Origin: an uncultured Tateyamaria sp. | GTDB taxonomy: Bacteria; Pseudomonadota; Alphaproteobacteria; Rhodobacterales; Rhodobacteraceae | Length of the DNA: 64,000 nt | Assembly: GCA_947501275.1 (NCBI GenBank) | Contig: CANMVD010000001.1 | Location: forward strand, 434,001-498,000 | Direction: 5' to 3' | In this document: positions 37,367 through 53,354 of the stretch, in pieces | How positions within the stretch are numbered: the stretch's first letter is position 1 | Layout: every line of letters starts with the position of its first letter | Notes under the pieces: generated by a model | Databases searched by the model: none | Seen by the model: only the letters and a program-made list of their open reading frames with translations | Told to the model about the DNA's origin: nothing | Made by a program: the position numbers and the translations under genes

Positions 37367-37501
37367 CAAACTGCCTCAGGTTCGGGATCGTGTTCGCCCC
37401 GTTTGCCCGAATGTAGCCCAAGCGAGACTCTTTCGTCCAGAAAAAGCCTCGTCAAAACCCGGTCTTGTGGCAAATCCGCCAATCCTCGGCCTCTTCTGAC
37501 C

Positions 37502-37549
37502 AAAAATACCATGGGGGAGGCTGAAAGCCGGGGGCGAAGCCCCCTGAGA
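37502..37549 (-). terminator. Double-hairpin element, copy A (terminator-like repeat)
   Basis: On the plus strand, GGGGGAG (513-519 of this kilobase) is followed by stem GGCT-GAA-AGCC (519-529), then stem GGGGGC-GAA-GCCCCC (530-544) and TGAGA. An A5 run at 37502-37506 becomes a T5 after the hairpins on the minus strand. It lies 26 bp after the amidase stop, in the transcript direction of that gene. A second copy with compensatory stem changes is at 53305-53354. The remaining bases of the 208-bp gap show no other feature. Confidence 0.6.
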
Positions 37550-37574
37550 ATGGCGTCGCGCAGCGGCCTTTGGA

Positions 37575-38903
37575 TTAGGTCAGCGCGGCTTCCGCGGCGA
37601 CACCCAGGCGCAACAGAGCTTCATCTCCATGTCGCAATCCCATCAGCATGATGCCGCAACTCGGAACACCTGTCGGCAGCGTCAACGCGCAAATCCCCAT
37701 CAGATTGCCGACACGTGTATTGCGCAGCGCCAACAGGTTCTCGGTTTTGTAATACGCGCTGTCCGTGTTGAGACGCTCCAGGTTCGGTGGCAGGATCGGC
37801 GCAGAGGGGGCAAGAACCGCATCAAAGCCCGCGACAGCCGCATCCCACGCATGGCGCACAGCCTCCAACTTGGCCCATGCCGCATTGTAATCTGGCGCAC
37901 TGAATTCGGCGCCAAGACGAAAGCGCTGCAAGATCTCGGCATACATCGCGTCCGGGTTGGCCTCGATCACGTCACGCCACAACCCATACACCTCGCCGGG
38001 CATCAACGGGCCAGCTTGATCCATCGCATCCGCCAATTCAGGCACCTCAATCGGAACAATCTTCGCTCCAGCAGCCTGCAACCGTTCGACCGCACTTTGA
38101 TAAGCGGCCATGGGTGCATCGCGAATGTCGTCCAGAACAACTGATTGCAGCGCGCCAAAGCGACGACCCTGCAACGAGGCGCCACGCAGATCCGGTGGTG
38201 ACGCCCCCTCCATGATCGCTGTCAACAAGGCAGCGTCTTCAACCGTCTTGGTCAAAGGCCCAACCGTGTCAAATCTGAAGCTCAAAGGAACGCAGCCTTC
38301 CAGCGACAGCCGACCATGGGTGGTTTTCATCCCAACCAGATCATTCCACGCAGATGGGATGCGCACAGACCCGCCCGTGTCAGACCCGATAGCAGCAGGC
38401 GCGAGTCCAAAAGCAACCGACGCAGCGGCCCCCGAAGACGATCCACCTGGCACAGCATCAGCGTCATTCACACAGGGCGGCGTCGCCGTGCTCGGGTTAT
38501 AGCCAAGGCCGGAAAAAGCAAGCTCGCTCATGTGGGTCTTGCCCAAACACACAAGTCCCATGGACGATGCGTTTTGTACAACAACGGCATCGGCATCAGG
38601 CACCCGCCCTTTCAACAGATTGGATCCGGCTTCGGTCCCATCTCCGGCCGTATCAAACAGATCTTTCCACGACACCGGCACCCCGTCCAACAAGGACAAC
38701 CGCTGGCCCACCTTCGCACGCTGCGAAGCGGCTTCGGCTTCGGCCATGGCACGCTGTGGCGTCACGCGGGCGTAGATGCGATCTTTGAGCTCATGCGCGT
38801 CAATCCGATCCAAAAAGGCGTGGGTCAGGTCCACAGGATCAATTTCGCCCGCTCCAATCAGGCGCCCCAATTCAGCTGCGGACTTTGTCATGTGATCTTG
38901 CAT
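37575..38903 (-). CDS. Amidase signature family hydrolase
   Basis: This 442-residue serine amidase has the Lys of the Ser-cisSer-Lys triad in VSWKDLFD (about residue 77), the Gly/Ser-rich PGGSSSGAAASVAFG (about 152-166), and the nucleophile region GSDTGGSVRIPSAW (about 174-187). This family includes GatA, but the gene stands alone without gatB or gatC, so it is a general amidase of unknown substrate. The ATG at 38903 has a GGAGGTG site 6 bases upstream; 36 residues of upstream reading frame overlap the divergent gene's promoter and are not coding. Confidence 0.87.
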   Translation of the reverse strand: MQDHMTKSAAELGRLIGAGEIDPVDLTHAFLDRIDAHELKDRIYARVTPQRAMAEAEAASQRAKVGQRLSLLDGVPVSWKDLFDTAGDGTEAGSNLLKGRVPDADAVVVQNASSMGLVCLGKTHMSELAFSGLGYNPSTATPPCVNDADAVPGGSSSGAAASVAFGLAPAAIGSDTGGSVRIPSAWNDLVGMKTTHGRLSLEGCVPLSFRFDTVGPLTKTVEDAALLTAIMEGASPPDLRGASLQGRRFGALQSVVLDDIRDAPMAAYQSAVERLQAAGAKIVPIEVPELADAMDQAGPLMPGEVYGLWRDVIEANPDAMYAEILQRFRLGAEFSAPDYNAAWAKLEAVRHAWDAAVAGFDAVLAPSAPILPPNLERLNTDSAYYKTENLLALRNTRVGNLMGICALTLPTGVPSCGIMLMGLRHGDEALLRLGVAAEAALT

Positions 38904-38985
38904 CGTACACCTCCATACGTTGGACTGGACGGTAGCGACGTCGCAGCGCATGGACAATCCCGCGCACCAGCGCATATTGCGGCTC

Positions 38986-40212
38986 ATGAACCATGACACC
39001 GATATCGCCATCGTGGGCGGCGGATTGGCCGGACCTGTCCTTGCGCTCGCCCTTGCGCAAACCGGTCAGCGGGTCACCGTCATCGACGCCCTCAGCACCG
39101 AGACCCGCGCAAATGCCGGGTTTGACGGACGCAGCTACGCGGTTGCGCTGACGTCCTGCCGTTTGCTGGACGGGATTGGCCTGTGGGACGAACTGGCGCC
39201 GCAGGCGCAGCCTATCCTCGAAATCAAAGTTTCTGACGGGCGGGCGGGCGAAGGGCCAGCGCCATTTTTCATGCATTTCGACCATGCCGAAATCGAAGAA
39301 GGCCCCATGGGCCATATGGTGCAGGACCGTCATCTGCGCCCTGCCCTGTTGAATGCCATGGCTGACACAGACGCCATCACCCATCTGACGCGCGAAGAGG
39401 TGGTGGCACAGACCGTAGAGCCGGGCAAAGTCACGCTGACACTGGCCTCGGGGCGAACACTTGCCGCCAAGGTGCTGATCGGGGCTGATGGTCGTGGCAG
39501 CGGCACAGCCGCGCGCGCGGGGATCAAGCGTATGGGCTGGGGCTACGGGCAAACGGCACTTGTTTGCGCCGTTGACCACGAGCAACCCCATAACGGCATC
39601 GCGCATCAATTCTTTATGCCCCAAGGGCCGTTGGCCATTCTGCCGCTGACCGGCAACACAAGTTCCATCGTCTGGAGCGAGACGGATACAAACGCCAAGG
39701 CTTTCATGGCGCTGGACGACGAGGCTTTCCTCACCATGCTTCGCCCGCGCTTTGGTGATTTTCTGGGTGACATTTCACTTGCCGGCAAACGCTACAGTTA
39801 CCCGTTGTCACTATCGCTCGCCACGCACTTGGTCGCGGACCGGGTCGCGCTGGTGGCCGACGCAGCACATGGCGTACATCCCATCGCAGGTCAGGGCCTG
39901 AATGCTGGACTGCGGGATATCGCAGCCTTGGCGGAAATCCTGACAGACGCAGCCCGACGCGGCGAAGACATCGGCGGCGGCAACGTCTTGGCGCAATATG
40001 AGCAATGGCGCCGTTTTGACAACACCGCGCTCGCGATGGTCACGGATGGGTTCAACCGCCTGTTCTCAAACGACAATGCACTATTGCGCGGAGTCCGAGA
40101 TGTCGGGATGGGGATGATCAGCGCGGTGCCTAGGCTACGGCGAGGATTTATCCGTGAGGCGGCAGGGCTAACCGGGGATCTGCCGCGTTTGATGCAGGGC
40201 CGCGCGCTGTAA
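38986..40212 (+). CDS. UbiH/UbiF-type FAD-dependent monooxygenase
   Basis: This 408-residue class A flavin hydroxylase has GGGLAGPVLALALAQ as N-terminal FAD loop, the IGADGRGS central motif and DAAHGVHPIAGQGLNAGLRD, the C-terminal FAD signature of the ubiquinone-biosynthesis hydroxylases. It probably hydroxylates the polyprenyl-benzoquinone ring in ubiquinone synthesis at the membrane. It is divergent from the amidase gene (82 bp). The start MNHDTDIAI is at 38986; weak SD. Which ring position it hydroxylates (UbiH, UbiI, UbiF or UbiL type) is undecided. Confidence 0.88.
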   Translation: MNHDTDIAIVGGGLAGPVLALALAQTGQRVTVIDALSTETRANAGFDGRSYAVALTSCRLLDGIGLWDELAPQAQPILEIKVSDGRAGEGPAPFFMHFDHAEIEEGPMGHMVQDRHLRPALLNAMADTDAITHLTREEVVAQTVEPGKVTLTLASGRTLAAKVLIGADGRGSGTAARAGIKRMGWGYGQTALVCAVDHEQPHNGIAHQFFMPQGPLAILPLTGNTSSIVWSETDTNAKAFMALDDEAFLTMLRPRFGDFLGDISLAGKRYSYPLSLSLATHLVADRVALVADAAHGVHPIAGQGLNAGLRDIAALAEILTDAARRGEDIGGGNVLAQYEQWRRFDNTALAMVTDGFNRLFSNDNALLRGVRDVGMGMISAVPRLRRGFIREAAGLTGDLPRLMQGRAL

Positions 40213-40262
40213 GGACATGCCGCCAAGGCAAAGCGGGGCGAGGTCCGCGCGCCTCCTTCAGG

Positions 40263-40439
40263 TCAGTCCAATGACCGCGCTTCGTCCACCAGCATGACCG
40301 GGATACCGTTGCGGATCGGATAAGCGATGCCAGCACCTTCAGAGATCAATTCCTGCCGCTCCGCGTCATAGCGCAATGTCCCGTGCGTTTCGGGGCATAC
40401 CAGCGCTTCGAGCATGTGGCGGTTGGCTGTTGTGGTCAT
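40263..40439 (-). CDS. Trm112 family small protein
   Basis: This is a 58-residue reading frame, shorter than usual gene-finding limits. It contains the Trm112-like pattern: [15 protein letters not shown], then an [19 protein letters not shown] stretch and a VDEAR end. Most members have two CxxC-like pairs; here only one Cys (C15) is kept, as in many alphaproteobacterial YcaR-type proteins. The ATG overlaps the stop of the LON-domain gene (ATGA at 40436-40439), so the two are coupled. Trm112 proteins stabilise methyltransferases; the partner here is unknown. Confidence 0.88.
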
Positions 40440-41077
40440 TGCATGACCTCCCCTTCACCACCACGCAAATTGAACTCGATCAGAGTGACAAGTGTTTCGC
40501 GACGGGTGGACAAAGACGGCGCTTCGAGCAATGCCTGCTTATCCTCGGCATCAAAGTCCAGCATCATGGACAGCGAATTGATCAGCAGTTCGTCATCTGC
40601 TTCTTTCAGGGTTTCCCAATCTGCCGACAGGGACTGCGCATCAAAGTACCGACCCAGTTGCTCAAGAAACAGTGCGCGGTCAAAACCCGGATCGCCCTCG
40701 GCTTTGCCCTGGTCGCGATCAAAGCCATCCCAGTTCACTTCGCAGCGGCGATAGGGCGTGAACCCTTCGACCTCTTTGACGACGCGAAAGCGGGAAATCC
40801 CTGACAGGGTAATAAGATAGCGGTTGTCTTCGGTTTCCGAAAACTGCGTAATCCGCCCCGCACATCCGATCGTATGCAGGCCCGTGCCCTTGCGCCCTTC
40901 AACCTCGTTGGGTTGCACCATGCCAATCAGCCGATGCGATGTCTTCAGGGCATCGTCGAACATCTGCAAGTACCGCGGTTCGAACAGATGCAACGGAAGG
41001 CGCGCGCGCGGCAGCAAAAGAGCCCCGGGCAAAGGAAATACCGGGATCGTGCCGGGAAGGTCAGCCACTGTAATCAT
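40436..41077 (-). CDS. LON N-terminal (substrate-binding) domain protein
   Basis: This 213-residue protein consists of a stand-alone LON N-terminal domain: [29 protein letters not shown] at the start and the [16 protein letters not shown] segment around residue 70. There is no AAA+ or protease domain, so it is not a protease by itself. Proteins of this kind occur next to trm112 and thioredoxin genes in Rhodobacteraceae, as here. Role unknown; binding of unfolded protein is inferred from the domain. Confidence 0.87.
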
Positions 41078-41104
41078 AAAATGTCAGCTAGCCCGCCAAT
41101 CGCA

Positions 41105-42022
41105 TCAGGCAAATATCATTGAGCTAAGACGACGACGTCCGTTCAAAACAATCGGGTCGTTGGCCTTGAGCGCATCAAAGACGGTGAACAATTGTGTCTT
41201 GGCCGCGCCATCGTTCCATTCACGATCCCGGCGGAACAATTCCAGCAATTCGTCAACTGCGCCGGCAGCGTCATCCGTTGCATGTAGCGCCTGAGCCAAA
41301 TCGAAGCGGGACTGGTGATCATCTGGATTGGCCTCTACCGCCGCCCGCAAGTCCGCCACGGGGCCCGCGTCAGCGGCCTGTCGGGCCAATTGCAGTTGCG
41401 CATGGGCAGCTTCCAGCTCGGGGCTTTTTGAAATCTCGGCCGCGGCGCCGTTCAAAACGGCCTCTGCCTGATCAAGATCACCCATGGCGATATGCGCGCG
41501 CACAAGACCGCCATAAGCACCAGCGTGATTGGGGTCTTCGCCAAGAATAGCCGCAAAAGTTTGGGCTGCATCATCCGCCTCTCCGGCGCTCAACATTTCC
41601 TCTGCCGCTTCGACGGCATCGTTTAGGCTGTCGCCGGGCGCTTCGCCACCAGAGGCCTTGATCACCCGATCCACGAAAGCATTCAGTTCAGAGCCGGGCA
41701 CGGCGCCCTGAAACCCGTCGACCGGTTGACCCTTCCAGAAGGCATACACAGTCGGAATGGACTGGATCTGCAACTGACCTGCAATGCCTTGGGCCTCATC
41801 CACGTTGATCTTGACCATCTTCACGGCACCTTTGGCCGCTGTCACCGCGTCCTCAAGCATCGGCCCCAATGTCTTGCAGGGGCCGCACCACGGGGCCCAG
41901 AAGTCCACAATCACGGGTACGGTCTGGCTGGCTTCGATCACGTCCGCCATGAACGTGGCTTCAGAGCCATCTTTGATCAAATCAGCGGTGGCAGGTGCTG
42001 CGGAAAGTCCCAAATCCATCAT
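41105..42022 (-). CDS. Thioredoxin-TPR co-chaperone, CnoX/YbbN-like
   Basis: This 305-residue protein has an N-terminal thioredoxin domain with an intact WAPWCGPCK active site (about residues 43-51) and the cis-proline region IQSIPTVYAF. It continues into a helical TPR region (about 140-300) rich in Ala and Glu. This domain order is that of CnoX (YbbN), a holdase linked to GroEL. Unlike E. coli CnoX, which has lost the CxxC, this copy keeps both cysteines and may also act as a reductase. The start is the first ATG at 42022 with GAGG 8 bases upstream. Confidence 0.9.
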   Translation of the reverse strand: MMDLGLSAAPATADLIKDGSEATFMADVIEASQTVPVIVDFWAPWCGPCKTLGPMLEDAVTAAKGAVKMVKINVDEAQGIAGQLQIQSIPTVYAFWKGQPVDGFQGAVPGSELNAFVDRVIKASGGEAPGDSLNDAVEAAEEMLSAGEADDAAQTFAAILGEDPNHAGAYGGLVRAHIAMGDLDQAEAVLNGAAAEISKSPELEAAHAQLQLARQAADAGPVADLRAAVEANPDDHQSRFDLAQALHATDDAAGAVDELLELFRRDREWNDGAAKTQLFTVFDALKANDPIVLNGRRRLSSMIFA

Positions 42023-42105
42023 CGTGCGGTCCTCTTTCTTCGGTTTGCGCTGTATATGGACATGTTCTGAGCAGATGCAAAGACACCGGGTGTTGTTTGC
42101 AGGGC

Positions 42106-42894
42106 TTACAGATCAAACGTCGCAAAGACAGGTGCGTGGTCGCTGGGCTTTTCCCATCCGCGCACGTCCCGCAATACGCGGCTTGAATGGGCAGCGTCTG
42201 CAATGTCTGACGTGGCCCAAACGTGATCCAGACGGCGGCCCTTGTCGGCGGCGTCCCAATCCTTGGCGCGATACGACCACCACGAATAAAGCAGCCCCTC
42301 GGGGATATCTTGCCGAGTGATGTCCACCCAATCGCCTGCCGTTTGCACATCTGCCAGATGTTCGACCTCAATCGGTGTGTGGCTGACAATCTTGAGAAGT
42401 TGTTTGTGGCTCCAGACATCATCCTCACGCGGGGCGATGTTAAGATCCCCAACAAGGATGGACTTTTTCGGAGCGGCCTTGGAAAAATGGTCGCGCATGT
42501 CTGTCAGGTAATCGAGCTTTTGGCCGAACTTTTCATTCTTGGTCCGATCCGGCACGTCACCCCCTGCGGGCACATAAAAGTTGTGGATCGTAACGCCATT
42601 CTCAAGGCGGCCTGCGATGTGGCGCGCATGGCCGAGATTCGCAAAATCAAAGGCATCGACCTCTTCCAGAGGGTGACGCGACAAGATGGCGACACCGTTG
42701 TAGCCCTTATCACCGCGCGCCACCATGTGTTCATAGCCAAGGGCGGCAAAACCCTCGCGCGGGATCTTGTCCACCGGGCTTTTGCACTCTTGCAAGCACA
42801 ACACATCCGGGCCCTGTTCTTCCAACAGCTTCAGCACGATGGGTTCGCGCAAGCGGACTGAGTTGATGTTCCAAGTGGCGAGGGTGAAAGGCAT
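42106..42894 (-). CDS. xthA: Exodeoxyribonuclease III / AP endonuclease
   Basis: This 262-residue enzyme of the endonuclease/exonuclease/phosphatase family repairs abasic sites and degrades 3' ends. Motifs are ATWNINSVRLR at the start, LCLQECK with the metal Glu, VGDLNIAPREDDVW with the catalytic Asp/Asn, and SDHAPVFATFDL at the C-terminus, which closes the active site. Length matches the family (about 268). It is a single gene, 83 bp upstream of the thioredoxin gene on the same strand. Confidence 0.94.
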   Translation of the reverse strand: MPFTLATWNINSVRLREPIVLKLLEEQGPDVLCLQECKSPVDKIPREGFAALGYEHMVARGDKGYNGVAILSRHPLEEVDAFDFANLGHARHIAGRLENGVTIHNFYVPAGGDVPDRTKNEKFGQKLDYLTDMRDHFSKAAPKKSILVGDLNIAPREDDVWSHKQLLKIVSHTPIEVEHLADVQTAGDWVDITRQDIPEGLLYSWWSYRAKDWDAADKGRRLDHVWATSDIADAAHSSRVLRDVRGWEKPSDHAPVFATFDL

Positions 42895-43016
42895 GAGATA
42901 CGCTCCGGTCTATCAGGCGCGGCAAACCTATCCCGGCCCCAGTCCCGCCACCAGCCCGAAAGGTGCGCAAAAGCAAAACGCGCTGCTGCGCACCCGCGCG
43001 CATCAAGGAGAACGAC

Positions 43017-43994
43017 ATGGCACTTTCAGACCAACGGCCCACAGGGTCTTCGTTTGGGCACAAAAGCACGGCCGCCGAAGTTGCAGCGCAGGTTGACCTG
43101 AGCGGCAAAACGGCTGTTGTCACGGGTGGGTATAGCGGTATCGGGATCGAAACTGTACGCGCCTTGGCCGGACGTGGTGCCCGAGTGGTTGTGCCAGTAC
43201 GCACGCCTCAAAAGGCCACTGCTGCGTTGGCGGACGTTGAAGGTGACATTACAGCCCTGCCCATGGATCTTGCCGATCTCGGGTCGGTCCGTCGCTTCGG
43301 GCAGGACGTGGCCCAGATGACACCAAGCCTTGATCTCTTGATCAACAACGCAGGTATCATGGCCTGTCCCATGGAACGCGTCGGACCGGGTTGGGAATCG
43401 CAGTTTGGCGTCAACCACATGGGGCATTTCGCGTTGACACAGACCTTGTTCCCGATGCTGGAACGGGCGGATGCGCCCCGCATCGTCGCCCTGTCTTCAA
43501 CAGGGCACAAGCTGTCTGACATCCGCTGGGATGACATTCAGTATGCCGAGACGGAATATGACAAATGGCAGGCCTACGGGCAGGCCAAAACAGCCAACGC
43601 GCTTTTCGCCAATGCAGCGTCGCGTCGCTTGCTGCCCCATGGAGGGCTCGCGTTCTCGGTACATCCCGGTGGCATTTTCACCCCACTACAGCGCCACTTG
43701 CCACAGGAAGAAATGATTGCTCTTGGCTGGTTGGGCGAGGATGGCGCGCCTTCTGAACGCGCCATGCAGGGTTTCAAATCACCAGAGCAGGGCGCATCAA
43801 CGACTGTATGGGCTGCAACCTCTCCGTCTCTGGACGGCAGAGCAGGTGTCTATTGCGAGGATTGCGATATAGCCGCTGTCACGGATCCCGACGACCCAAC
43901 CGCCCGCTTTGTGGGTGTGGATCCACATGCTTGCGATGACGAGTCTGCCGAGCGGCTGTGGACACTAAGCGAAGCCCTTTTGGCACAAGCCTGA
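43017..43994 (+). CDS. SDR family oxidoreductase (retinol-dehydrogenase/WW-oxidoreductase type)
   Basis: This 325-residue SDR has TGGYSGIG (NADP loop, about residues 38-45), INNAGIM, the catalytic Ser in LSSTGHKL and YGQAK (YxxxK). The long insert between the Ser and Tyr motifs and the C-terminal HPGGIFTPLQRHL are usual for the retinol dehydrogenase-like subgroup found widely in bacteria. The ATG at 43017 has AAGGAG 6 bases away; 18 upstream residues in frame are rejected. It faces the response regulator across a minus-strand terminator. Substrate unknown. Confidence 0.88.
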   Translation: MALSDQRPTGSSFGHKSTAAEVAAQVDLSGKTAVVTGGYSGIGIETVRALAGRGARVVVPVRTPQKATAALADVEGDITALPMDLADLGSVRRFGQDVAQMTPSLDLLINNAGIMACPMERVGPGWESQFGVNHMGHFALTQTLFPMLERADAPRIVALSSTGHKLSDIRWDDIQYAETEYDKWQAYGQAKTANALFANAASRRLLPHGGLAFSVHPGGIFTPLQRHLPQEEMIALGWLGEDGAPSERAMQGFKSPEQGASTTVWAATSPSLDGRAGVYCEDCDIAAVTDPDDPTARFVGVDPHACDDESAERLWTLSEALLAQA

Positions 43995-44017
43995 CGGGCG
44001 ACTAAGCCGGGTTGGCC

Positions 44018-44044
44018 AAAAAAAACCCGGGCACGAAGCCCGGG
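44018..44044 (-). terminator. Rho-independent terminator of the response-regulator gene
   Basis: Stem CCCGGGC / GCCCGGG (7 bp, loop of 5) is followed on the minus strand by eight T residues (A8 at 44018-44025 on the plus strand). It lies about 112 bp after the response-regulator stop and between convergent genes. This is a textbook intrinsic terminator. Confidence 0.85.
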
Positions 44045-44156
44045 CAAGTCCAACAGGGAGGTTCATGCCTTAGTCCAACGGACCCCCGGGCATGAGCGGG
44101 ATTACATGAGACGCTAAATGATCTAGGTTAACGAGACATTGATCTGCATCAAATAT

Positions 44157-44843
44157 TCAATTCACCAAACGGTAGCCCCCGGATTCGGTTACAAGAAGGC
44201 GCGCATTTGACGGATCTGGTTCAATTTTTTGACGCAAACGATAGATGTGCGTCTCAAGCGTGTGCGTGGTGACACCCGCGTTGTAGCCCCAAACCTCGTG
44301 CAGCAGCACGTCGCGGGCGACCACACCGTCTGTCGAGCGGTAGAGGAACTTGAGGATGTTTGTCTCTTTCTCGGTCAGGCGGATTTTCTTGTCATCCTCG
44401 GTGATCAACATCTTCACAGAGGGCTTGAACGTGTATGGCCCAAGGGTGAAAACCGCATCTTCGGATTGCTCATGCTGGCGCAATTGGGCGCGGATACGGG
44501 CCAAAAGAACCGGGAATTTGAAGGGTTTGGTGACGTAGTCATTCGCACCGGCATCAAGACCAAGGATGGTGTCGGCGTCCGTGTCGTGGCCTGTCAGCAT
44601 CAGGATGGGCGACTTGACCCCCTGTTTGCGCATTACCCGGCACAATTCGCGACCGTCTGTATCGGGCAGACCCACATCGAGGATCACGAGATCATAAATC
44701 GCTTCTTTGGCCCGAACCAATGCGTCCTGACCGTTGCCAGCTTCGAACACATCGAACTCTTCCGTCATGATCAGTTGTTCGCTGAGGGCTTCGCGCAGAT
44801 CTTCGTCATCGTCGACCAACAAGATTTTCTTCAATTGTGCCAT
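44157..44843 (-). CDS. OmpR-family response regulator, CenR-like
   Basis: This 228-residue regulator has a receiver domain with the acidic pocket DDDED (10-14), the phosphoacceptor Asp in VILDVGLPD, Thr in MLTGHD and Lys in TKPF. A winged-helix DNA-binding domain from about residue 130 (RLTEKETNILKFLYRS, THTLETHIYRLRQKIE) follows. The EEFDVFEAGNGQDAL and MRKQGVKSPILMLT stretches recall the essential CenR regulator of envelope and cell division in alphaproteobacteria. No histidine kinase gene is adjacent, so its partner is encoded elsewhere. It is divergent from ribA. Confidence 0.9.
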   Translation of the reverse strand: MAQLKKILLVDDDEDLREALSEQLIMTEEFDVFEAGNGQDALVRAKEAIYDLVILDVGLPDTDGRELCRVMRKQGVKSPILMLTGHDTDADTILGLDAGANDYVTKPFKFPVLLARIRAQLRQHEQSEDAVFTLGPYTFKPSVKMLITEDDKKIRLTEKETNILKFLYRSTDGVVARDVLLHEVWGYNAGVTTHTLETHIYRLRQKIEPDPSNARLLVTESGGYRLVN

Positions 44844-45007
44844 GGGTATGGACCTCCCGTTCTCTTGTCACAATACATGTGCGGCGGTTCGCTTATGAGC
44901 AAGTTCTTGGCCTTGTCTCTCACGCCCATGTGTGGCTGACATGGCAAATGTTTCAATTCGAGCGTGTTTTGCGTATGTCGACGACGACAGCAGGGGATTT
45001 TTGTAAC

Positions 45008-46096
45008 ATGGGGCTTGGTCCTGACACCATCGAAACGCTTGCGCGCGCCCGCAGTGACCTGCGCATGGGCGTGCCTGTCGTGATTTCGGGGCAAGATTCT
45101 GTGCTGGTGTGTGCGGCGGAAACTCTGACCGACGCGCGCATGAGCCGAATGCTGGATCTGTCAGATGCGCCAGTCATGGCAATCACAGCGCGCCGGGCGG
45201 AAACTCTGAAGGCGCGTGCGTATGATCGCGATCTGGCCCGCGTTTTGGTCTCGGCAGATGCCACATTGGCATGGGTTCAGGCATTGGCCGATCCCGCAAA
45301 CGATCTCGCCTCGCCGATGAAGGGACCATTACACAGCGTGCGGGAAGGGGCCGCGGACGCGCATCGGGCGGCGATACAATTGTGCAAAGACGCGCGCTTG
45401 CTGCCCGCTGCTCTCTGCGTAACCCTGTCTGGCGATCAGGTGCCTGCACTTACACACGGGTTGACCGTTATACCGCTTGAGACAGCGCAACCCCATCTGG
45501 CGGATCGCAGTCCGCTCCACGGTGTTGTGCAAGCACGACTGCCGATGTCCGTTTCAGAAGCAGGTCGTTTGCATGTGTTTCGCCCCGAAGATGGTGGAGA
45601 AGAACATTACGCCATCGAAATCGGGCGTCCTGATCGATCTGCCCCGGTTCTGTCTCGACTGCATTCCGCCTGCTTTACAGGTGATCTATTGGGCAGCCTA
45701 AAGTGTGACTGTGGGCCGCAACTGCGCGCTGCGCTTGCACAGATGGGCGCAGAAGGAGCTGGCGTGCTGCTCTATCTCAATCAGGAAGGGCGCGGAATTG
45801 GCCTTGCGAACAAGATGCGGGCCTACGCATTGCAGGATCAGGGCTTTGATACAGTCGAGGCGAACCACCGCCTCGGGTTTGAAGACGATGAGCGTGACTT
45901 TCGCCTTGGGTCAGACATCCTGAAGTCACTCGGGTTCTCGCAAGTGCGTTTGCTGACAAATAACCCCGCCAAAGTCGCAATGATGGAGGCCAGTGGCATC
46001 GCGGTCACCGAACGCGTCTCTCTGAAAGTGGGAGAAACGACCCACAATCGCGACTACCTTGCGACGAAAGCCGCCAAGTCCGGGCATCTGTTGTGA
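45008..46096 (+). CDS. ribA: GTP cyclohydrolase II with degenerate N-terminal domain
   Basis: This 362-residue enzyme performs the first step of riboflavin synthesis. The C-terminal half has the zinc motif C-x10-C-x-C in SACFTGDLLGSLKCDCG (about residues 220-236), the catalytic NQEGRGIGL and the LLTNNP segment. The N-terminal about 150 residues (LARARSDLRMGVPVVISGQDSVLV...) align in spirit with DHBP synthase (RibB) but lack its acidic DEDRENEGD motif, so the domain is probably non-catalytic. The ATG at 45008 is preferred, since the downstream RARSDLRMG is the start of homologous proteins; ATG 44975 is the alternative. Confidence 0.9.
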   Translation: MGLGPDTIETLARARSDLRMGVPVVISGQDSVLVCAAETLTDARMSRMLDLSDAPVMAITARRAETLKARAYDRDLARVLVSADATLAWVQALADPANDLASPMKGPLHSVREGAADAHRAAIQLCKDARLLPAALCVTLSGDQVPALTHGLTVIPLETAQPHLADRSPLHGVVQARLPMSVSEAGRLHVFRPEDGGEEHYAIEIGRPDRSAPVLSRLHSACFTGDLLGSLKCDCGPQLRAALAQMGAEGAGVLLYLNQEGRGIGLANKMRAYALQDQGFDTVEANHRLGFEDDERDFRLGSDILKSLGFSQVRLLTNNPAKVAMMEASGIAVTERVSLKVGETTHNRDYLATKAAKSGHLL

Positions 46097-46156
46097 CGCA
46101 GGCGGTGCAACAACCGTTGTTTCGACGGGGCGCCCCTTGGTGTCTGCTCCAGTAAA

Positions 46157-46663
46157 ATGACGAATATGACGCCACATGATCTGGTTTTGACTCCGCGCGG
46201 CCTGCGCTTTGGCGGTCGCGTCTTTCCTTGCACCATTGGCAAGGGCGGGATTGCGACCGACAAGCGCGAAGGAGATGGTGCCACCCCTGTTGGGACACAT
46301 CGTCTTGTCGGTATGTTGTATCGTCCCGACCGTATGGCGTGCCCAACAGATTGGGCCATTCCCATAAAACCCGGCGATTTATGGTCGGATGATGGCTGTG
46401 CAGATGATTACAACCACATGGTGCGTGCGCCCTATGCATTCAGCCATGAACGTCTGCGTCGGGCCGATCCGCTTTATGATCTCGTGATACTGACTGACTG
46501 GAACTGGCCCTACGCAGTGCCGGGGCGTGGTTCGGCCATATTCATCCATCGGTGGCGACGCCCCGGATACCCGACCGAGGGGTGTGTCGGCCTCAGACCG
46601 GATCACCTGGCATGGATCGCGCCGCGTATTCAATTTCGTACGCGACTGATCGTGCGTGCGTGA
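46157..46663 (+). CDS. L,D-transpeptidase (YkuD) family protein
   Basis: This 168-residue protein has the YkuD catalytic cysteine in YPTEGCVGLRPDHL near residue 142, with the upstream His in IFIHRW. The family's usual SxGCxR is TEGCVGL here. No signal peptide or LysM domain is visible at the N-terminus, so export is unclear. It would form 3-3 peptidoglycan cross-links or attach proteins to peptidoglycan. It is between ribA and the convergent yggS gene, with 10 bp to the latter's end. The ATG at 46166 is an alternative start. Confidence 0.82.
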   Translation: MTNMTPHDLVLTPRGLRFGGRVFPCTIGKGGIATDKREGDGATPVGTHRLVGMLYRPDRMACPTDWAIPIKPGDLWSDDGCADDYNHMVRAPYAFSHERLRRADPLYDLVILTDWNWPYAVPGRGSAIFIHRWRRPGYPTEGCVGLRPDHLAWIAPRIQFRTRLIVRA

Positions 46664-46672
46664 GGCGATGCC

Positions 46673-47329
46673 TTACTGCGCTGGTGTCCGTTCACCGAAT
46701 ATCGCGGAACCAACGCGAATGTGGGTGGCACCCAAAGCAATGGCGCTCTCGAAATCGGCGCTCATCCCCATCGACAGCTGAGACAACCCGTTCCGCGCTG
46801 CGATCTTTGCCAATAAGGCAAAGTGCAACGACGGCTCTTCGTCGGCCGGAGGGATGCACATCAACCCGACTATTGGCAGATCGAGATCCCGGCACTGAGT
46901 GACAAATGCGTCTGTTTCGGGCGGCATGACACCCGCTTTTTGCGGCTCTTCACCGGTATTCACTTGGATGAACAGGTCCGGGCAATGTCCCATGTCCTGC
47001 GCCAACCGAGCCAATGTGTTGGCCAATTTGGGTCGATCAAGGGCGTGGATCGCCTGACATAATTCCATGGCTTGGCGGGCCTTGTTGGTTTGCAACGGGC
47101 CGATCAGATGCACATCGACATCACCGTAGGTTTCTCGAAAGGCGGGCCACTTGCCTGCGGCTTCCTGCACACGGTTTTCACCAAACAGGCGGTGGCCTTG
47201 ATCCAAAACGGCGGCGACGCGCGCATCGGGCTGGACCTTGCTGACGGCAATCAGTTTGACAGAGCCTGCGGGACGCCCGGCCTTGGCTTCGGCATCCGCA
47301 ATTTTGGTTGTGATATCACTGAGCGCCAC
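46673..47329 (-). CDS. yggS: YggS/PROSC family PLP homeostasis protein
   Basis: This 218-residue TIM-barrel protein binds PLP through the Lys in LIAVSKVQPD (about residue 25) and keeps HLIGPLQTNKAR and GLMCIPP, the family blocks. It buffers pyridoxal phosphate and has no known reaction. The GTG at 47329 (VALSDITTKI) is the best start, with AAGG upstream and normal family length; the 34 residues before it in the open frame are unlike the family. It is convergent with the L,D-transpeptidase gene. Confidence 0.9.
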   Translation of the reverse strand: MALSDITTKIADAEAKAGRPAGSVKLIAVSKVQPDARVAAVLDQGHRLFGENRVQEAAGKWPAFRETYGDVDVHLIGPLQTNKARQAMELCQAIHALDRPKLANTLARLAQDMGHCPDLFIQVNTGEEPQKAGVMPPETDAFVTQCRDLDLPIVGLMCIPPADEEPSLHFALLAKIAARNGLSQLSMGMSADFESAIALGATHIRVGSAIFGERTPAQ

Positions 47330-47390
47330 GGCAGGTAACCTTGATTGTTCATCGGTCCGGTTTTCATCTGCACTTAAAGACAACGGTGCA

Positions 47391-47424
47391 ACAAAAGAAA
47401 AGGGGCGGACCAAAGGCCCGCCCC
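47391..47424 (-). terminator. Rho-independent terminator of the porin gene
   Basis: GGGGCGG (47402-47408) pairs with CCGCCCC (47418-47424), extended by CC/GG past one mismatch. On the minus strand it is followed by TTTTCTTTTGT. It starts 27 bp after the porin stop, appropriate for a highly expressed gene. Confidence 0.82.
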
Positions 47425-47451
47425 AAATCATCAGATGATGATGTTCAACTA

Positions 47452-48435
47452 TTAGAAGTTGAAGATCACACCCAGGTCGGCAATTGTGTTGCCGGCTGTG
47501 TTTTGGCCGATACCGCCGCGCAGCGATACACCGCCGCCCAGACCGTGACGGAAGCCGATTGCGACGACTTCGTCTTCAGCGTCCAGACCGGAGTCGGAGA
47601 ACGCGAAGCGGATCTCGGTGGCTGCACCGATGTCGTACTTGGCGGACAAACCGTACATGGTCTCGTCGTTGATGTCGCTGTCACCAACCAGGATCGAGAA
47701 GGCGAACGCGCCGATCTCACCGTCGAAGGAAACAACCCAGAAGTCGTTTTCGACGCTGGCTGTCAGAGCACCGGTGGTGGAGTCCAGAACGTCTGTGTCT
47801 TCGCTACCGAAGGCGACGCCTGCAGAGTAGTTACCGAAGTTGTAGCCGAAACCGATTTGGTACTCTTCGCGCTTCGTCACAGTACCTGCAACCGTGTCAG
47901 TGACACCGGAGTCGTCTGTGATCGATGCGGATGCTGTGAAGTCACCCATTGTGTAGCGCAGCTTGACAGTTGGGGCGACATCGTCTGTGCCGGTGCCGAA
48001 GCCGGAAGCCGGTACGTTGTTGAACGCGGAAGACTGTTCAGCGAACGATGTCAGACCAACGCCGTAGCCGTAGTAGTTAACCACGTCACCGGAGTCGATT
48101 ACGTCAGACACGTGGCCAACGTCCAGGCGGAAGCCGCCGGATGTTACAGCGAAACCAGCTGCGGAGTTGTTCGCAACGTTGGCTGCGCCAGTGGCTTGAT
48201 CGTCTGTCTGCCAGCGGATACGGCCTTCAAACTCCAGACCGTTGTCTGCAGTTGTTGTGCCTGTGGCTGTCAGACGGAAGCGCTGTTCGATGCGTACTTC
48301 GTCGTTGCCAACTGTTGCGTCATTGCCTTCGTCGTAGAAAAGGCCGAAGCGGCCGAAGCCACCAAAGCTTACTTCTGCTGCTGCCATGCTACCTGTAGCG
48401 ATCAGCGCAGTTGTAGCGAAGAGAACTTTTTTCAT
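47452..48435 (-). CDS. Outer-membrane porin, Rhodobacter type
   Basis: This 327-residue precursor has a signal peptide of about 20 residues (MKKVLFATTALIATGSMAAA). The mature start is EVSFGGFGRFGLFYDEG, followed by alternating beta-strand segments, and the chain ends in Asn-Phe (VIFNF), the C-terminal aromatic needed for BAM assembly. It forms a general diffusion channel. Codon use is markedly more uniform than in neighbours (long runs of preferred codons), a sign of high expression. The site GAGGGA precedes the ATG. The 261-bp region upstream, up to the DUF3576 gene, should contain its promoter; a TATAAA lies at 48607-48612 on the minus strand without a convincing -35. Confidence 0.9.
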   Translation of the reverse strand: MKKVLFATTALIATGSMAAAEVSFGGFGRFGLFYDEGNDATVGNDEVRIEQRFRLTATGTTTADNGLEFEGRIRWQTDDQATGAANVANNSAAGFAVTSGGFRLDVGHVSDVIDSGDVVNYYGYGVGLTSFAEQSSAFNNVPASGFGTGTDDVAPTVKLRYTMGDFTASASITDDSGVTDTVAGTVTKREEYQIGFGYNFGNYSAGVAFGSEDTDVLDSTTGALTASVENDFWVVSFDGEIGAFAFSILVGDSDINDETMYGLSAKYDIGAATEIRFAFSDSGLDAEDEVVAIGFRHGLGGGVSLRGGIGQNTAGNTIADLGVIFNF

Positions 48436-48696
48436 GAGTTTTCCCTCGGGTTTAAGTCACACGCCCTGACCGGGGAATCCGGTGAGGGGATGCAGGGTAT
48501 GTCACTCATTCTCCCGACTATCTCAAGCAAGGCCTGATCTGGCGCCACAATTCCGACATGGGATGGTGCAGCTTTGCCACAGTCGGGGGGACGCACCCAC
48601 AGGCTGTTTATACAAGGGTCCTTGTGGCGCAGTGCCTTGCGGCGTGAATCTAAGTTGTCTATCACGGGGCACGGGCAAGACGAGATTGGGCATCAC

Positions 48697-49197
48697 ATGA
48701 TCAATTTGAGCTGGAATATGCGAAAGGCGGGGCGTTTGGCCGTGTTTGGCATCGCGATTCTTCTGGCAGGCTGTGGCACACGGTTCAGTTCGCGCGGTGG
48801 CGGGGACGCCCCCTTGGATTCCGATATTGCCCGCGAACAGGACGGAATTGCTGGCACCACCATTCAGGAAGCCTTGCGCGGTCGACGCAACGAAGAACAG
48901 GTGGTGCAGGTCAATCGCTATATCTGGACAGCGGCACTGCAAGTGCTCGACTTTCTTCCGGTTCAATCGGTCGATCCCTTCACCGGCGTGATCGTCACTG
49001 GCTTTGGTACTCCACCCGGCGGTGGAACAGCTTATCGTGCAACGGTTCTGGTTCAAGATCCTGCACTTGATGCACGCGCGCTCAATGTTGCGCTGCAAAC
49101 ACGCCGTGGTCCGGCAAGTGCGGCCACCGTGCGTGCGGTAGAAGATGCGATCTTGACCCGCGCCCGCCAACTGCGCATCGCGGACGGTCGCCTCTAG
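48697..49197 (+). CDS. DUF3576 lipoprotein
   Basis: This 166-residue protein has a lipoprotein signal ending in ILLAGC, so the Cys is lipidated. The following domain ([46 protein letters not shown]) is DUF3576, restricted to alphaproteobacteria as far as I know and of unknown function in the envelope. The start may be ATG 48697 or 48718. It is followed by a good terminator, so it is a single-gene transcript upstream of leuS. Confidence 0.87.
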
Positions 49198-49233
49198 CCC
49201 CTTTCGCACGCTACCATTCCATTCTAATACATG

Positions 49234-49260
49234 CGCCGGGCCCAACCAGCCCGGCGTTTT
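49234..49260 (+). terminator. Rho-independent terminator after the DUF3576 gene
   Basis: CGCCGGGC (49234-49241) and GCCCGGCG (49249-49256) make a perfect 8-bp GC stem with a 7-base loop followed by TTTT. It lies 36 bp after the DUF3576 stop and 28 bp before leuS, so leuS must start from a promoter within or near this hairpin or through read-through. Confidence 0.8.
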
Positions 49261-49288
49261 CACGTTCAACACCAGGATCACGAGCCCA

Positions 49289-51826
49289 ATGGCAAGCTAC
49301 ACCCCATCCGAGATCGAAGCCCGCTGGCAAGCTGCCTGGGAAAAGGCTGACGTGTTCAAGGCCCGACGCATCGCCGACAAGCCCAAGTATTATGTGCTCG
49401 AGATGTTCCCCTATCCTTCGGGTCGCATCCACATGGGGCACGTACGCAACTACACGATGGGTGACGTGATTGCCCGTTACAAGATGTCGACAGGGCACAA
49501 CGTTCTGCACCCGATGGGCTGGGATGCCTTTGGAATGCCTGCGGAAAATGCCGCCATGGCCATTGGCGGCCACCCCAAGACCTGGACTTACGACAACATC
49601 GCCGACATGCGTGGCCAGATGAAGCCACTGGGCCTGTCTATTGACTGGTCCCGCGAATTTGCCACCTGCGATCCCGAATATTACGGCCAGCAGCAATCAC
49701 TATTCCTCGACTTCCTCGAAGCAGGTCTTGTCTACCGCAAAAACGCCCAAGTGAACTGGGATCCAGTGGACATGACCGTGCTGGCAAACGAGCAGGTTAT
49801 CGACGGCAAAGGTTGGCGTTCGGGCGCAGAGGTCGAGCGGCGCGAGCTGACGCAGTGGTTCTTCAAGATCTCCGACATGGCCGGTGAGTTGAAATCCGCC
49901 CTGGATGGCCTTGATAACTGGCCCGCCAAGGTGCGCCTGATGCAGGACAACTGGATCGGCGAATCCCGTGGCATCGACATTCCCTTCGTCCGCACGGACG
50001 ACGCCGGTACGATTCTGTGCTACTCCACCCGACCAGATACGATGCGCGGCGCGTCCTTTATTGCCGTTTCCCCCGACCACCCGGTCGCCAAGGCGCTTGA
50101 AGCGGATAATCCCGACTTTGCCGCCTTTATCGATGAATGCCGCAAGATGGACACAACCGAAGCGGCCATGGAAAAGGCCGAGAAAAAAGGCATCGACACA
50201 GGCATTCGGGTGCGCCACCCCGTCTACAAGGATGTCGAACTGCCCGTTTGGATCGGCAATTTTGTCCTGATGGATTATGGCACAGGCGCCGTGTTTGGCT
50301 GCCCTGCCCATGACCAGCGTGACCTAGATTTCGCCCGCAAATATGATCTGCCCGTGCAAAATGCGTTCTACATGCCCGGTGACGAAACCGAAGTCGGCAC
50401 CGAAGCCCTTGTGCCCGCAAAAACCGAAAAAGTTGTCTTTATCGACCATTTCGCAGGCATCAAGAATGTCACGAGCCAAGAAGCGATTGACGCAACCATC
50501 GATTATTTCGAGGTGCACAATCTGGGCAAAGGACAAACCCAGTACCGCCTGCGCGACTGGGGTCTGAGCCGCCAACGCTACTGGGGCTGCCCGATTCCGG
50601 TGGTGCATTGTGACGACTGCGGTGTTGTCCCCGAAAAGAAAGAGAACCTGCCGGTCGTGCTGCCCGAAGATGTCAGCTTTGACATCCCCGGGAATCCGTT
50701 GGACCGCCACCCGACATGGCGCGATGTACCTTGCCCATCCTGCGGCAAAGCGGCCAAGCGAGAAACCGACACGATGGACACGTTTGTCGATTCGTCTTGG
50801 TATTTTGCGCGCTTCACCTCACCGCGCGCGGCTGATCCGACAGATCTCGAAGACGCTGCATACTGGATGAATGTGGACCAGTATATCGGCGGAATCGAAC
50901 ACGCGATCCTGCACCTGCTTTATTCCCGCTTCTTTGCGCGGGCCATGCGGATCACGGGCCACTTGCCACAAGGTTGCGAAGAACCGTTCGACGCACTCTT
51001 CACACAAGGGATGGTGACTCACGAGATCTACCAGACCCGAGACGACAAAGGGCGCCCTGTCTATCACCTGCCCGAGGATGTCACAGACGGCAAACTTGCC
51101 GATGGTACCGAAGTGGAAATCATCCCTTCAGCCAAGATGTCCAAGTCCAAGAAAAATGTCGTCGACCCGCTCGGCATCATCGCCAGCTACGGCGCTGACA
51201 CGGCGCGCTGGTTTGTGTTGTCCGATTCGCCACCCGAACGGGATGTAGAATGGACGGCATCCGGTGCGGAAGCAGCCTATAAGCACCTCGCCCGCGTCTG
51301 GACGATCTGCGACCGGATCAGCCAGATGGACAACGACGCAGCCGGACAAAACGACGAAGACCTGCTGCGCGCCATGCACAAAACCATCCATGACGTGACG
51401 ATGGGGGTCGAATCTTTTGGTTTCAACGCCGCCATCGCCAAACTCTATGGCTTCACGGCAACGCTGCAAAAGTCCAAGGCCAGCCACGCGGCCCAACGCA
51501 CGGCAATCATGACTCTTGCCCAGTTGATGGCCCCCATGACGCCGCATCTGGCCGAAGACATCTGGGCGCATCAGGGTGGCGAGGGTTTGATCATTCATGC
51601 GCCGTGGCCAAAGGCGGACGAGAAAATGCTGGTGTCCGACACGGTCACGCTGCCCATCCAGATCAACGGCAAACGGCGCGGCGAACTGACGGTCGCGGCC
51701 GATCTCGACAAGGCAGAGGTTGAAAAACTGGGGCTGGCACACGAAGCTGTGGTCAGAGCCCTTGATGGGGCCCAACCCAAAAAGGTCATCGTCGTGCCCG
51801 GTCGGATCATCAATGTCGTGGTTTAA
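49289..51826 (+). CDS. leuS: Leucyl-tRNA synthetase
   Basis: This 845-residue class I synthetase has the HIGH-type motif in [11 protein letters not shown] (about residues 47-57) and KMSKS in [14 protein letters not shown] (about residue 616). Between them is the editing domain (about 220-410) with [13 protein letters not shown], plus a CDDCG...CPSCG zinc-like insert around 445-490. It charges tRNA-Leu in the cytoplasm. Its end overlaps lptE by 14 bp, and leuS-lptE-holA is a conserved operon. Confidence 0.97.
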
Positions 51827-52280
51827 AGCCGCCCTTCTCTGTCTGGCACTTGCGTCTTGCGGGTTCCAGCCCGTCTACGGACCAAACGGTTCGGCGACTG
51901 GCCTGCTCAACACCATTGCCGTGGATCCGCCTGTGGACCGCGAAGGATTCTTCCTCGTGCGTCAGCTCGAAGAACGGTTGGGGCGGCCCGCGGAAACGAA
52001 ATACCGGCTCGCCATCGAATTGAGCGTGGCGCAAGAAGATCGCGCAATTGATCCCGATGGCGACATTCGCCGCTTCCATTTGATCGCCGGGGCCAGCTAC
52101 TCCCTAATCGAAGCAAACACTGGCAAAGTCACGCATTCCGGCAAGGTCAGCGACTTTGTCGGCTACTCCGCCACGGGCACCACAGTAGCCACGCTGGCCG
52201 CCAAACGCGCAGCCCAGGAACGGCTGATGACCATCCTCGCCGATGAGATTGTCTTGCAACTGCAGGCCACACAGCTGTGA
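51813..52280 (+). CDS. lptE: LPS-assembly lipoprotein LptE
   Basis: This 155-residue outer-membrane lipoprotein has the lipobox LALASC at residues 11-16 followed by GFQPVYG, the hallmark start of alphaproteobacterial LptE. It plugs LptD in lipopolysaccharide export. The ATG at 51813 is inside leuS, and its stop overlaps the holA GTG start (GTGA). The short body and beta-rich pattern match family expectation. Confidence 0.9.
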
Positions 52281-53278
52281 AGCTCGCCACCGGGCCCGCC
52301 AACGCCTATTGCGCTAAACCGGACGCTGATGCGGCTGGCCTGCTGCTCTTTGGAGCGGACACCATGCGGATTGCCTTAAAGCGGCAGCAGGTGGTGGCCG
52401 CCCTGATCGGACCCAGCGGCGAAGAAGAAATGCGGTTGACCCGGATCTCGGGCAGCGAGTTGCGCAAAGACCCCGCACAATTGATGGATGCGCTCAAAGC
52501 CATCGGTTTTTTCCCAGGCCCGCGTGTGGCGCTGGTCGAAGATGTCACAGAAACCGTGGGGCCGATCATCACTGACGCGCTCGCCGCCTGGGCACCGGGC
52601 GACGCACAAATCGTTGTAACAGCGGGCACGTTGAAACCGACGTCCAAGCTACGCAAAGCCTTTGAGACACATAAACAGGCCTATGCCGCAGGTATTTACG
52701 ATACACCCCCGACACGGGATGAAATCGAACGCGACCTCAAGGCAGCCGGTATCGATCAGCCGCCGCAAGAGGCCATGCACGTGCTCACCGACCTTGCACG
52801 CGACCTCGAACCGGGGGATTTTCGCCAGACTCTGGAAAAGATCGGCCTCTACAAACGTGGCGATGCCAGCCCACTCAACGCCGAGGACATCGCCGCCTGT
52901 GCCCCTACCTCAATCGAGGCGGATGTAGACGATGTCTTGTTCGTTGTCGGCGACGGACAGGCCGCAGCCATTGGCCCGGTCATGCAACGGCTGCAGGCGC
53001 AAGGCGTGAACGCCGTCTCGTTATGCATCGGTGCCATGCGACATTTCAGGACCCTGCACCGTGCTGCCACGGACACCTCCGGCAGACCACAGATCTGGGG
53101 GCCTAACCGTGACAAAATGCTGGCGCAGGCGCGGGCGTGGGGGGCGCCCAAACTGGAACTGGCGTTGACCGAACTTACCGACACAGACCTCAAATTGCGC
53201 TCGGCAGGACAACACGCGCCCGCACTTGCGCTTGTGGAACGCTGCTTTATCCGGCTGGCCATGCTGGCACGGCGTTAA
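52277..53278 (+). CDS. holA: DNA polymerase III subunit delta
   Basis: This 333-residue clamp-loader subunit opens the beta clamp. It starts with GTG ([16 protein letters not shown]), overlapping the lptE stop by 4 bp. The fold markers are LLLFGADTMRIALKRQQV in domain I, LTRISGSELRKDPAQLMDAL, and the C-terminal helical collar with LALTELTDTDLKLRSAG. The position after lptE is the conserved one. A double-hairpin repeat lies 27 bp after its stop. Confidence 0.9.
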   Translation: MKLATGPANAYCAKPDADAAGLLLFGADTMRIALKRQQVVAALIGPSGEEEMRLTRISGSELRKDPAQLMDALKAIGFFPGPRVALVEDVTETVGPIITDALAAWAPGDAQIVVTAGTLKPTSKLRKAFETHKQAYAAGIYDTPPTRDEIERDLKAAGIDQPPQEAMHVLTDLARDLEPGDFRQTLEKIGLYKRGDASPLNAEDIAACAPTSIEADVDDVLFVVGDGQAAAIGPVMQRLQAQGVNAVSLCIGAMRHFRTLHRAATDTSGRPQIWGPNRDKMLAQARAWGAPKLELALTELTDTDLKLRSAGQHAPALALVERCFIRLAMLARR

Positions 53279-53304
53279 AAAACCCGCGCATCCTATCTCT
53301 GTTC

Positions 53305-53354
53305 AAAAAAAATTCCGGGGGAGTCCGTAAGGACGGGGGCAAAGCCCCCTGAAA
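53305..53354 (-). terminator. Double-hairpin element, copy B (terminator-like repeat)
   Basis: On the plus strand, GGGGGAG (53317-53323) is followed by stem GTCC-GTAA-GGAC (53323-53334), then stem GGGGGC-AAA-GCCCCC (53335-53349) and TGAAA. An A8 run (53305-53312) becomes a T8 after the hairpins on the minus strand, so it can terminate the GFA gene, whose stop is 29 bp away. The order and spacing equal copy A at 37502-37549, and the first stem differs by paired substitutions. Confidence 0.65.

Follow-up and report, generated by a model that had tools for sequence, protein, structure and literature searches.

A Rhodobacteraceae-wide mosaic repeat family at gene 3' ends with a predicted three-strand core and a conserved tail

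Introduction

The locus studied here raises the question of what two G/C-rich double hairpins of the same layout do behind two genes of an uncultured Tateyamaria sp. They lie in a stretch of 64,000 nucleotides (C1:434001-498000 of the 4.6-Mb genome; hereafter the window, with positions counted from its first letter). On the plus strand, copy 1 reads GGGGG (37513-37517), A, GGCT-GAA-AGCC (37519-37529), GGGGGC-GAA-GCCCCC (37530-37544) and TGA, and copy 2 reads GGGGG (53317-53321), A, GTCC-GTAA-GGAC (53323-53334), GGGGGC-AAA-GCCCCC (53335-53349) and TGA; the window holds no other GGGGGC-loop-GCCCCC hairpin. A first-pass annotation had described this layout with its pairing, correctly in both positions and letters, and had proposed a dispersed structured terminator or a small mobile palindrome. 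On the minus strand, both copies consist of block A (GGGGGC), a 3-nt loop, block B (GCCCCC), a 4-bp hairpin, T, block C (CCCCC) and a T-rich stretch. We find that they belong to a mosaic intergenic repeat family spread across the Rhodobacteraceae, a large group of chiefly aquatic bacteria, and similar to repetitive extragenic palindromic (REP) sequences and bacterial interspersed mosaic elements (BIME), in which the double hairpin is the lesser half of the element.

A mosaic repeat family in the Rhodobacteraceae

The own genome contains 32 GGGGGCNNNGCCCCC sites, compared to none for a control pattern, and 29 of these palindromes carry a distal C-run in one and the same orientation; the three without it are L041-L043. 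The triple block GGGGGC-N3-8-GCCCCC-N0-30-CCCCC is matched 16 times in the forward and 24 times in the reverse direction, with overlap between some matches (control, 0). Once all copies are read in one sense, several tail classes appear beyond the T-rich stretch: T1 (GTGGTATTTNNNGTCAGAAGAA, copy 1), T2 (GGATTTTTTGGAACAGAGAAG-like, copy 2), T3 (AAGTTTA..TGGCAAGATGAAG-like) and T4 (two copies). The T1 tail has 63 matches at up to two mismatches, 50 of them exact, and the control has none; its three middle bases, left free in the search pattern, vary among the matches while the neighbouring bases are constant. Further copies thus exist, and the dispersal that had been surmised from two copies is borne out by the pattern search. 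The T-run reported after the hairpins is present at both window copies (plus-strand A-tracts at 37502-37506 and 53305-53312) but only partly conserved in the family, where the conserved part is TATTT and the purine-rich tail beyond it. The trailing TGA does not generalize, as the bases ahead of block A differ between copies.

The upstream part of the element is modular. Most T1 tails are preceded by an A-B-C block and the others by a short GCCTCCGGCGG-type hairpin; this alternative upstream module, GCCTCCGGCGGT or, with a compensated stem, CCCTCCGGGGGT, is joined to the same tail at L048, L053, L062, L087 and other loci. One of the 63 T1 tails (L056) lies inside a long gene and has no upstream hairpin module, whereas L071, also inside a gene, has a hairpin-like one. 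Both the A-B-C and the short-hairpin modules are present in other genera.

In a sample of 61 family genomes, one per genus, the triple block occurs in 47 and reaches at least five matches in 38, with a total of 890 compared to 28 for the control. The tail pattern TATTTNNNGNCARANGAA is found in 22 of the 61 genomes, seven of which have at least 24 matches (24-91 each), and in the genomes listed at length the matches listed keep to one tail dialect each, such as GACAGAAGAA in G002, GCCAGAAGAA in G027 and GCCAAATGAA in G009. A class-level sample of 76 genomes comprised the own genome, one genome of the same family (0 matches) and 74 others; in it only three genomes outside the family have at least five triple-block matches, namely G091 (5), G152 (8) and G132 (182). 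A stricter pattern run against named genomes gave at least 80 matches; of the 80 listed, all but six carry the name of Rhodobacteraceae, of Rhodobacterales or of genera within them, and one further title, Carideicomes, could not be placed. Rhodobacter capsulatus, Paracoccus and Ruegeria are among the matches listed. Inverted tail pairs about 20 nt apart were seen at G002:C8:168528-168582 and G028:C147:756-810.

Two vehicles of spread were considered. The T1 tail pattern matches 13 stretches of viral contigs, none of them preceded by a hairpin and C-run as judged by eye; these matches were taken as chance, and a phage origin was dismissed. Plasmid spread was set aside as well, copy 1 having no match in PLSDB at E 1e-3.

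Sequence covariation and the predicted fold of the core

All fetched loci together yielded 312 elements in which a C-run, a spacer and TATTT could be parsed. The parser passed over interrupted runs and T2-T4 tails that lack TATTT, and some false members are suspected from a few unusual loops. Counts on this set combine loci retrieved through their tail with others retrieved by pattern (fixed run lengths, A before block C), and 85 elements chosen by tail or orthology, free of pattern constraints, were counted apart.

Block C is as long as the shorter of A and B in 224 of the 231 elements with a short connector and in 59 of the 81 with a long one; many of these elements had been fetched with runs of 4 or 5 required. 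Among the 85 unconstrained elements the same holds for 67, compared to a mean of 44% and a maximum of 60% after within-group permutation. The connector between B and C measures 3 nt in 25 of the 85, mostly GGA, AGA or AAA. About a dozen of the 85 show the form TCnnnCT, in which the same 3-nt connector is flanked by B and C each extended by two bases, giving A = GAGGGG, B = CCCCTC and C = CTCCCC. Strict strand exchange, with A pairing to a block C that directly repeats B, needs CCCCTC opposite GAGGGG and was rejected, the observed block being CTCCCC. The suggestion that the first G-run of the plus strand is an alternative pairing partner therefore stands in that it draws attention to the distal run and falls in that this run mirrors B rather than repeating it, which points to a third strand instead of a competing Watson-Crick strand.

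The base 5' of C supports this picture among the 85 elements. It is T in 10 of 12 cases when the next hairpin pair is A-T and A in 10 of 12 when that pair is T-A, as a mirror predicts, and it is never T in the 25 T-A or C-G cases. A third block that mirrors the second, in a form that would allow Hoogsteen triplets, is thus found at G-C and A-T positions, and the mirror extension of C appears to hold only where a standard triplet is possible, which excludes C-G. In the long-connector class, base A precedes block A in 51 of 77 elements and T precedes block C in 56 of 77; these show no clear correlation and were not used.

A second covariation links the hairpin loop to the spacer that follows block C. 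In 3-nt loops, a penultimate T goes with A as the first spacer base in 29 of 33 cases and a penultimate C with G in 134 of 139 (Fisher p ~3e-24, with related copies). Within the own genome, 2- and 3-nt loops give 5 T>A, 1 T>G and 32 C>G; the rule is also seen in G002, the genus set and the named set, while G051 and G027 have no T loops. Loop and spacer are fully paired in 287 of 307 elements (permuted mean 227, maximum 238), including 163 of 170 with 3-nt loops (142, maximum 149, permuted within loop length) and 61 of 66 with 5-nt loops (26, maximum 36), and the loop/spacer types include TGTCT/GA, TGACT/GT, TGCCT/GG, TTCGC/GCG, TTCAC/GTG and TTTGC/GCA. With 5-nt loops, two pairs can form in 43 of the 44 cases whose spacer measures 5 nt, and three in 17 of the 21 whose spacer measures 6 nt, two registers being allowed. 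In the common size classes the spacer equals the number of pairs plus 3 nt, leaving a constant 3 nt between the last pair and TATTT.

The small stem that drew attention to the locus, GGCT/AGCC in one copy and GTCC/GGAC in the other, is indeed compensated: 57 of 77 long connectors contain at least 4 pairs (one G-T or A-C allowed), compared to a mean of 5.9 and a maximum of 12 after shuffling, with 34 distinct stems among 67. It is an optional insert between B and C.

Pairs other than Watson-Crick on the element's own strand comprise four A-C and one T-G in the small stems, and six A-C (four outermost), one G-T and nine others in A:B. Neither here nor between loop and spacer (C>A 6, T>G 4) is there an excess of the G-U type, and this lack, in small numbers, speaks against folding in the RNA sense by the wobble test. 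The best-fitting fold predicted from these patterns consists of the hairpin A:B, block C lying back along the hairpin, and the spacer paired to the loop.

Outside the family, the 182 triple-block matches of G132, a 1.7-Mb genome from another family of the class, have the form GGGGGGC-TA-GCCCCCC-AAA-CCCCCC with variants, mostly followed by TTCAC/TTAAC-like sequence. The loci examined (contig C1; L477, L480-L499) contain no TATTT and do not follow the loop-spacer rule. A replichore bias in this genome was dropped, for the loci lie on both strands.

Conservation at orthologous positions

Orthologous slots in 18 congeners were compared by eye on alignments. The copy-1 slot holds the element in 15 of the 18, with varying connector type, run length and tail class; the exceptions are another hairpin in L150 and L152 and a degenerate one in L154. 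The copy-2 slot is clear in ~8 congeners, partial in ~4 and decayed or empty in the remainder. A T1 copy antisense to both neighbours (L051), placed just upstream of a putative ribosome-binding site as judged by eye, retains place and direction in 14 of 18 congeners, although in L440 its hairpin has degenerated, and is not kept in L444, L446, L447 and L448. The short-hairpin-module copy L087 is kept in 16 of 18, one of them degenerate. As slots are retained across the genus while class and tail change, the positions of the elements are old and their sequence classes turn over. In L445 (G072), a complete new element bearing a T3 tail stands behind an old A/B hairpin, as though it had landed in another element or replaced part of it.

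Such turnover would also be expected of a REP-like mobile palindrome, a non-autonomous unit whose folded strand an enzyme would recognise and cut near the tail, with no benefit to the host needed. Its dispersed mosaic copies in several classes per genome, the class swaps at orthologous slots, the inverted pairs, the nested copy in L445 and the many near-identical stretches at other places in congeners (90-98% identity over ~42-65 bp) are all in keeping with mobility. However, a Y1/RAYT transposase (PF01797) has 0 matches in the own genome, compared to matches in 5 of 14 control genomes, and identity with the REP/RAYT system was set aside for this reason. The positions are moreover kept across the genus, and copying alone does not explain why the free NNN varies while its neighbours are constant. 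We consider this origin improbable; of the small mobile palindrome first proposed, the dispersal stands.

Location and orientation relative to genes

Gene contexts of 226 sites in five sets were assigned with a simple codon-usage gene finder. Relative to the element, 69 sites lie in +>+, 67 in +>-, 52 in ->- and 8 in ->+ contexts; the orientation counts leave out 30 sites, namely 19 inside a called gene, which are partly artefacts, and 11 whose side could not be assigned. In tandem contexts, 69 elements run with and 52 against the gene direction (two-sided binomial p 0.15), whereas convergent gaps greatly outnumber divergent ones (67 versus 8, p 1e-12). The convergent excess is strong, for among the gaps of at least 40 nt between the 58 called genes of the window only 4 are convergent, compared to 7 divergent and 15 tandem. 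The elements thus sit at gene 3' ends in free orientation, and the description of a dispersed, structured element at such ends is well supported by the genome counts and covariation.

A structured intrinsic terminator would account for part of this pattern. Here the A:B hairpin, the third strand and the loop-spacer pairs of the nascent RNA would make up a compact knot where the RNA leaves the polymerase, release would follow in UAUUU eight nucleotides on, and antisense-oriented copies would stop antisense transcription. The fixed 3 nt and TATTT after the predicted structure, the 3'-end location with its convergent excess, the position of each window copy right behind a gene and in the fitting sense, and the copy-1 slot occupied in most congeners are consistent with it. 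Across the family, however, a tract of U following the hairpin in the sense of the upstream gene is not the general arrangement, there being no clear tandem bias; the antisense copy L051 is conserved just upstream of its putative ribosome-binding site; conservation is seen in the tail past the T-rich stretch and not in the T-run itself; a wobble excess is absent from the RNA-sense strand; and the same window has ordinary hairpin and T-run terminators. Free orientation, together with an antisense copy kept in 14 of 18 congeners, makes a plain one-way terminator unlikely, and the strand bias to gene 3' ends expected of it was not found. Even in its structured form we regard the terminator as rather unlikely.

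A plain stabiliser of mRNA 3' ends, for which the strong A:B hairpin alone would matter in either sense, agrees with the perfect 6-bp arm pair in 299 of 335 tail-anchored cases, would work in both senses and fits the 3' location. It leaves block C, the loop-spacer complementarity and the tail unexplained, and is in our view very improbable.

The two window copies and their surroundings

Copy 1 spans 37491-37544 on the minus strand. Its block A (37539-37544), which takes part in the three-block covariation, is followed by the loop TTC (37536-37538), block B (37530-37535), the optional small hairpin GGCT/AGCC (37519-37529) inserted between B and C, and block C (37513-37517), the proposed third strand. 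The penultimate T of the loop predicts an A in the spacer, and the spacer is ATGG, followed by TATTT (37504-37512). The tail GTCAGAAGAG (37491-37500) is of the T1 class and one change away from GTCAGAAGAA. Copy 2 spans 53296-53349 on the same strand, with block A (53344-53349), block B (53335-53340), the optional small hairpin GTCC/GGAC (53323-53334) and block C (53317-53321), followed by a spacer, a T8 run and a T2-class tail (GGAATTTTTTTTGAACAGAGA) at 53296-53316.

Both copies come just after minus-strand genes, as originally observed. Upstream in the element's own sense lie an amidase-family gene for copy 1 (37575-39011, minus strand) and a GFA-domain gene for copy 2 (53383-53964, minus strand). 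Copy 2 sits between convergent genes, the second being a plus-strand open reading frame that ends at 53278 and has no Pfam match.

Several other features of the window deserve mention. Upstream of block A of copy 1, at 37545-37577 (minus strand), a second repeated module TGATCCAAAGGCCGC-TGC-GCGACG.. stands right after or overlapping the stop codon; it recurs at the same place in congeners (L137-L155, L290-L309), with short separate matches elsewhere in the genus. The small RNA SorX (44019-44102, minus strand; Rfam RF02784, 78.7 bits) ends in an ordinary hairpin and T8. An ordinary intrinsic-terminator-like site with a 10-bp stem, TTTTCTTTTG, lies at 47402-47424 (minus strand) and contrasts with the repeat.

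Comparison with known elements

At the gathering score, Rfam assigns no family to the element, the only match in the window being SorX elsewhere in it; at E up to 1, seven loci gave one weak match away from the element. Among the open-licence papers listed by literature searches, none was seen to describe such an element in Rhodobacter, Roseobacter or Rhodobacteraceae, and a search for sequence strings in print led to papers on other subjects. The nearest published description found is that of intrastrand-triplex repeats such as BoxC/PIT, which according to PMC4666352 have been known since the 1990s with no function assigned; Rhodobacter, Roseobacter and Rhodobacteraceae are absent from its main text. 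As BoxC, PIT and TMECO are outlined there, the present element shares with them three short G/C-rich blocks, short loops, a predicted intrastrand triplex, an intergenic location without strand bias and sometimes inverted pairs. Its block order is purine-pyrimidine-pyrimidine (R-Y-Y), which makes it class III if read on the element's strand and class I if read on the opposite one, whereas TMECO belongs to class II, with a Y-R-R order and 9-nt stems CCCTCNCCC...GGGNGAGGG...GGGNGAGGG (PMC4666352). The 312 parsed elements have R-Y-Y blocks with runs of 3-7 C and none shows the TMECO layout, the TMECO pattern itself not having been searched for. Features that set the element apart from these known repeats are the complementarity of loop and spacer, the optional stem between B and C and the tail with its dialects.

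The likeness to REP/BIME lies in palindromes that are dispersed and mosaic, occupy gene 3' ends in both orientations, fall into several classes per genome and have variable stems with compensation. Unlike REP/BIME with RAYT, the element lacks a PF01797 match and has a long conserved tail and a third-strand block. A further REP feature, according to the title of PMC3733652, is a GTAG or CGTC head at the base of the hairpin. The element departs from both BoxC/PIT and REP/BIME in features that were compared. Like intrinsic (Rho-independent) terminators, it has G/C hairpins after genes with a T-rich stretch nearby. It differs from them in its free orientation and in the conserved sequence beyond that stretch; where a terminator has its U-tract directly at the foot of the hairpin, there are usually 3 nt and TATTT, then NNN, although copy 2 has T8.

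The tail dialects resemble those of the DNA uptake sequences of Neisseriaceae (PMC3630211), also a short motif with species dialects, although several tail classes coexist in the genus of the window. A receptor for competence or DNA import that reads the tail would produce such dialects without strand preference, and the near-equal numbers on both strands and the 3'-end location are compatible with it. However, an adjacent hairpin module accompanies the motif here, nearly always so for T1 tails, even the seven genomes with most matches have only 24-91 each, which is few, and the literature listings showed no link. We consider an uptake function very improbable.

Discussion

The lack of a G-U preference and the free orientation to genes favour a role at the DNA level. 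We therefore favour, with a probability of about 0.4, a DNA-level, orientation-independent boundary element at gene 3' ends. In the mechanism that the sequence patterns suggest, the A:B hairpin would form in the single-stranded core, the distal C-run would lie along it as a third strand (an intrastrand triplex or pseudoknot), and one to three base pairs between hairpin loop and spacer would lock the fold. Beyond the predicted knot follow 3 nt, TATTT, three free bases and the purine-rich tail of about 10-12 nt. The genome-specific tail dialect suggests recognition by a co-evolving factor. The tail-bound factor and the extruded hairpin or triplex may then stall polymerase or end transcripts from either side, and the strong A:B hairpin may also protect mRNA 3' ends in either sense.

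A number of points weigh against this boundary element or its proposed fold. The 3-nt distance from the predicted knot to TATTT is fixed and might be a hallmark of an RNA-polymerase terminator, and copy 1 occupies the position expected of one; both favour the terminator. Copies are related, hence p-values overstate. The rule linking loop and spacer has breakers (the 4 T>G and 6 C>A among the 312 parsed elements); copy 2 itself is an exception, with loop TTT and first spacer base G, and 2-nt loops, paired in 61 of 67 cases, do not exceed the permuted maximum of 61 (mean 57). Where the next hairpin pair is C-G, a mirror would place G directly 5' of C, yet G stands there in 2 of 13 cases and A in 11; A is also the usual connector base, so that only the A-T cases are informative on the mirror rule. 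The dialect is not uniform in the genus of the window, where a genome contains several tail classes side by side. Pyrimidine triplexes that contain C form more readily under acid conditions. Finally, earlier work described in PMC4666352 saw no terminator activity of PIT/BoxC elements.

It is a further and doubtful step to see in this boundary element a new class of DNA element, in which a natural triplex-pseudoknot under compensatory evolution would combine with a fast-evolving tail-binding factor into a direction-independent mark of gene ends. With hundreds of copies that show three-block and loop-spacer compensation, mutation and rescue would put the importance of the predicted third strand to a direct test. 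A tail-binding protein, should there be one, would be a family-wide gene-end factor in widely studied bacteria such as Rhodobacter capsulatus, Paracoccus and Ruegeria.

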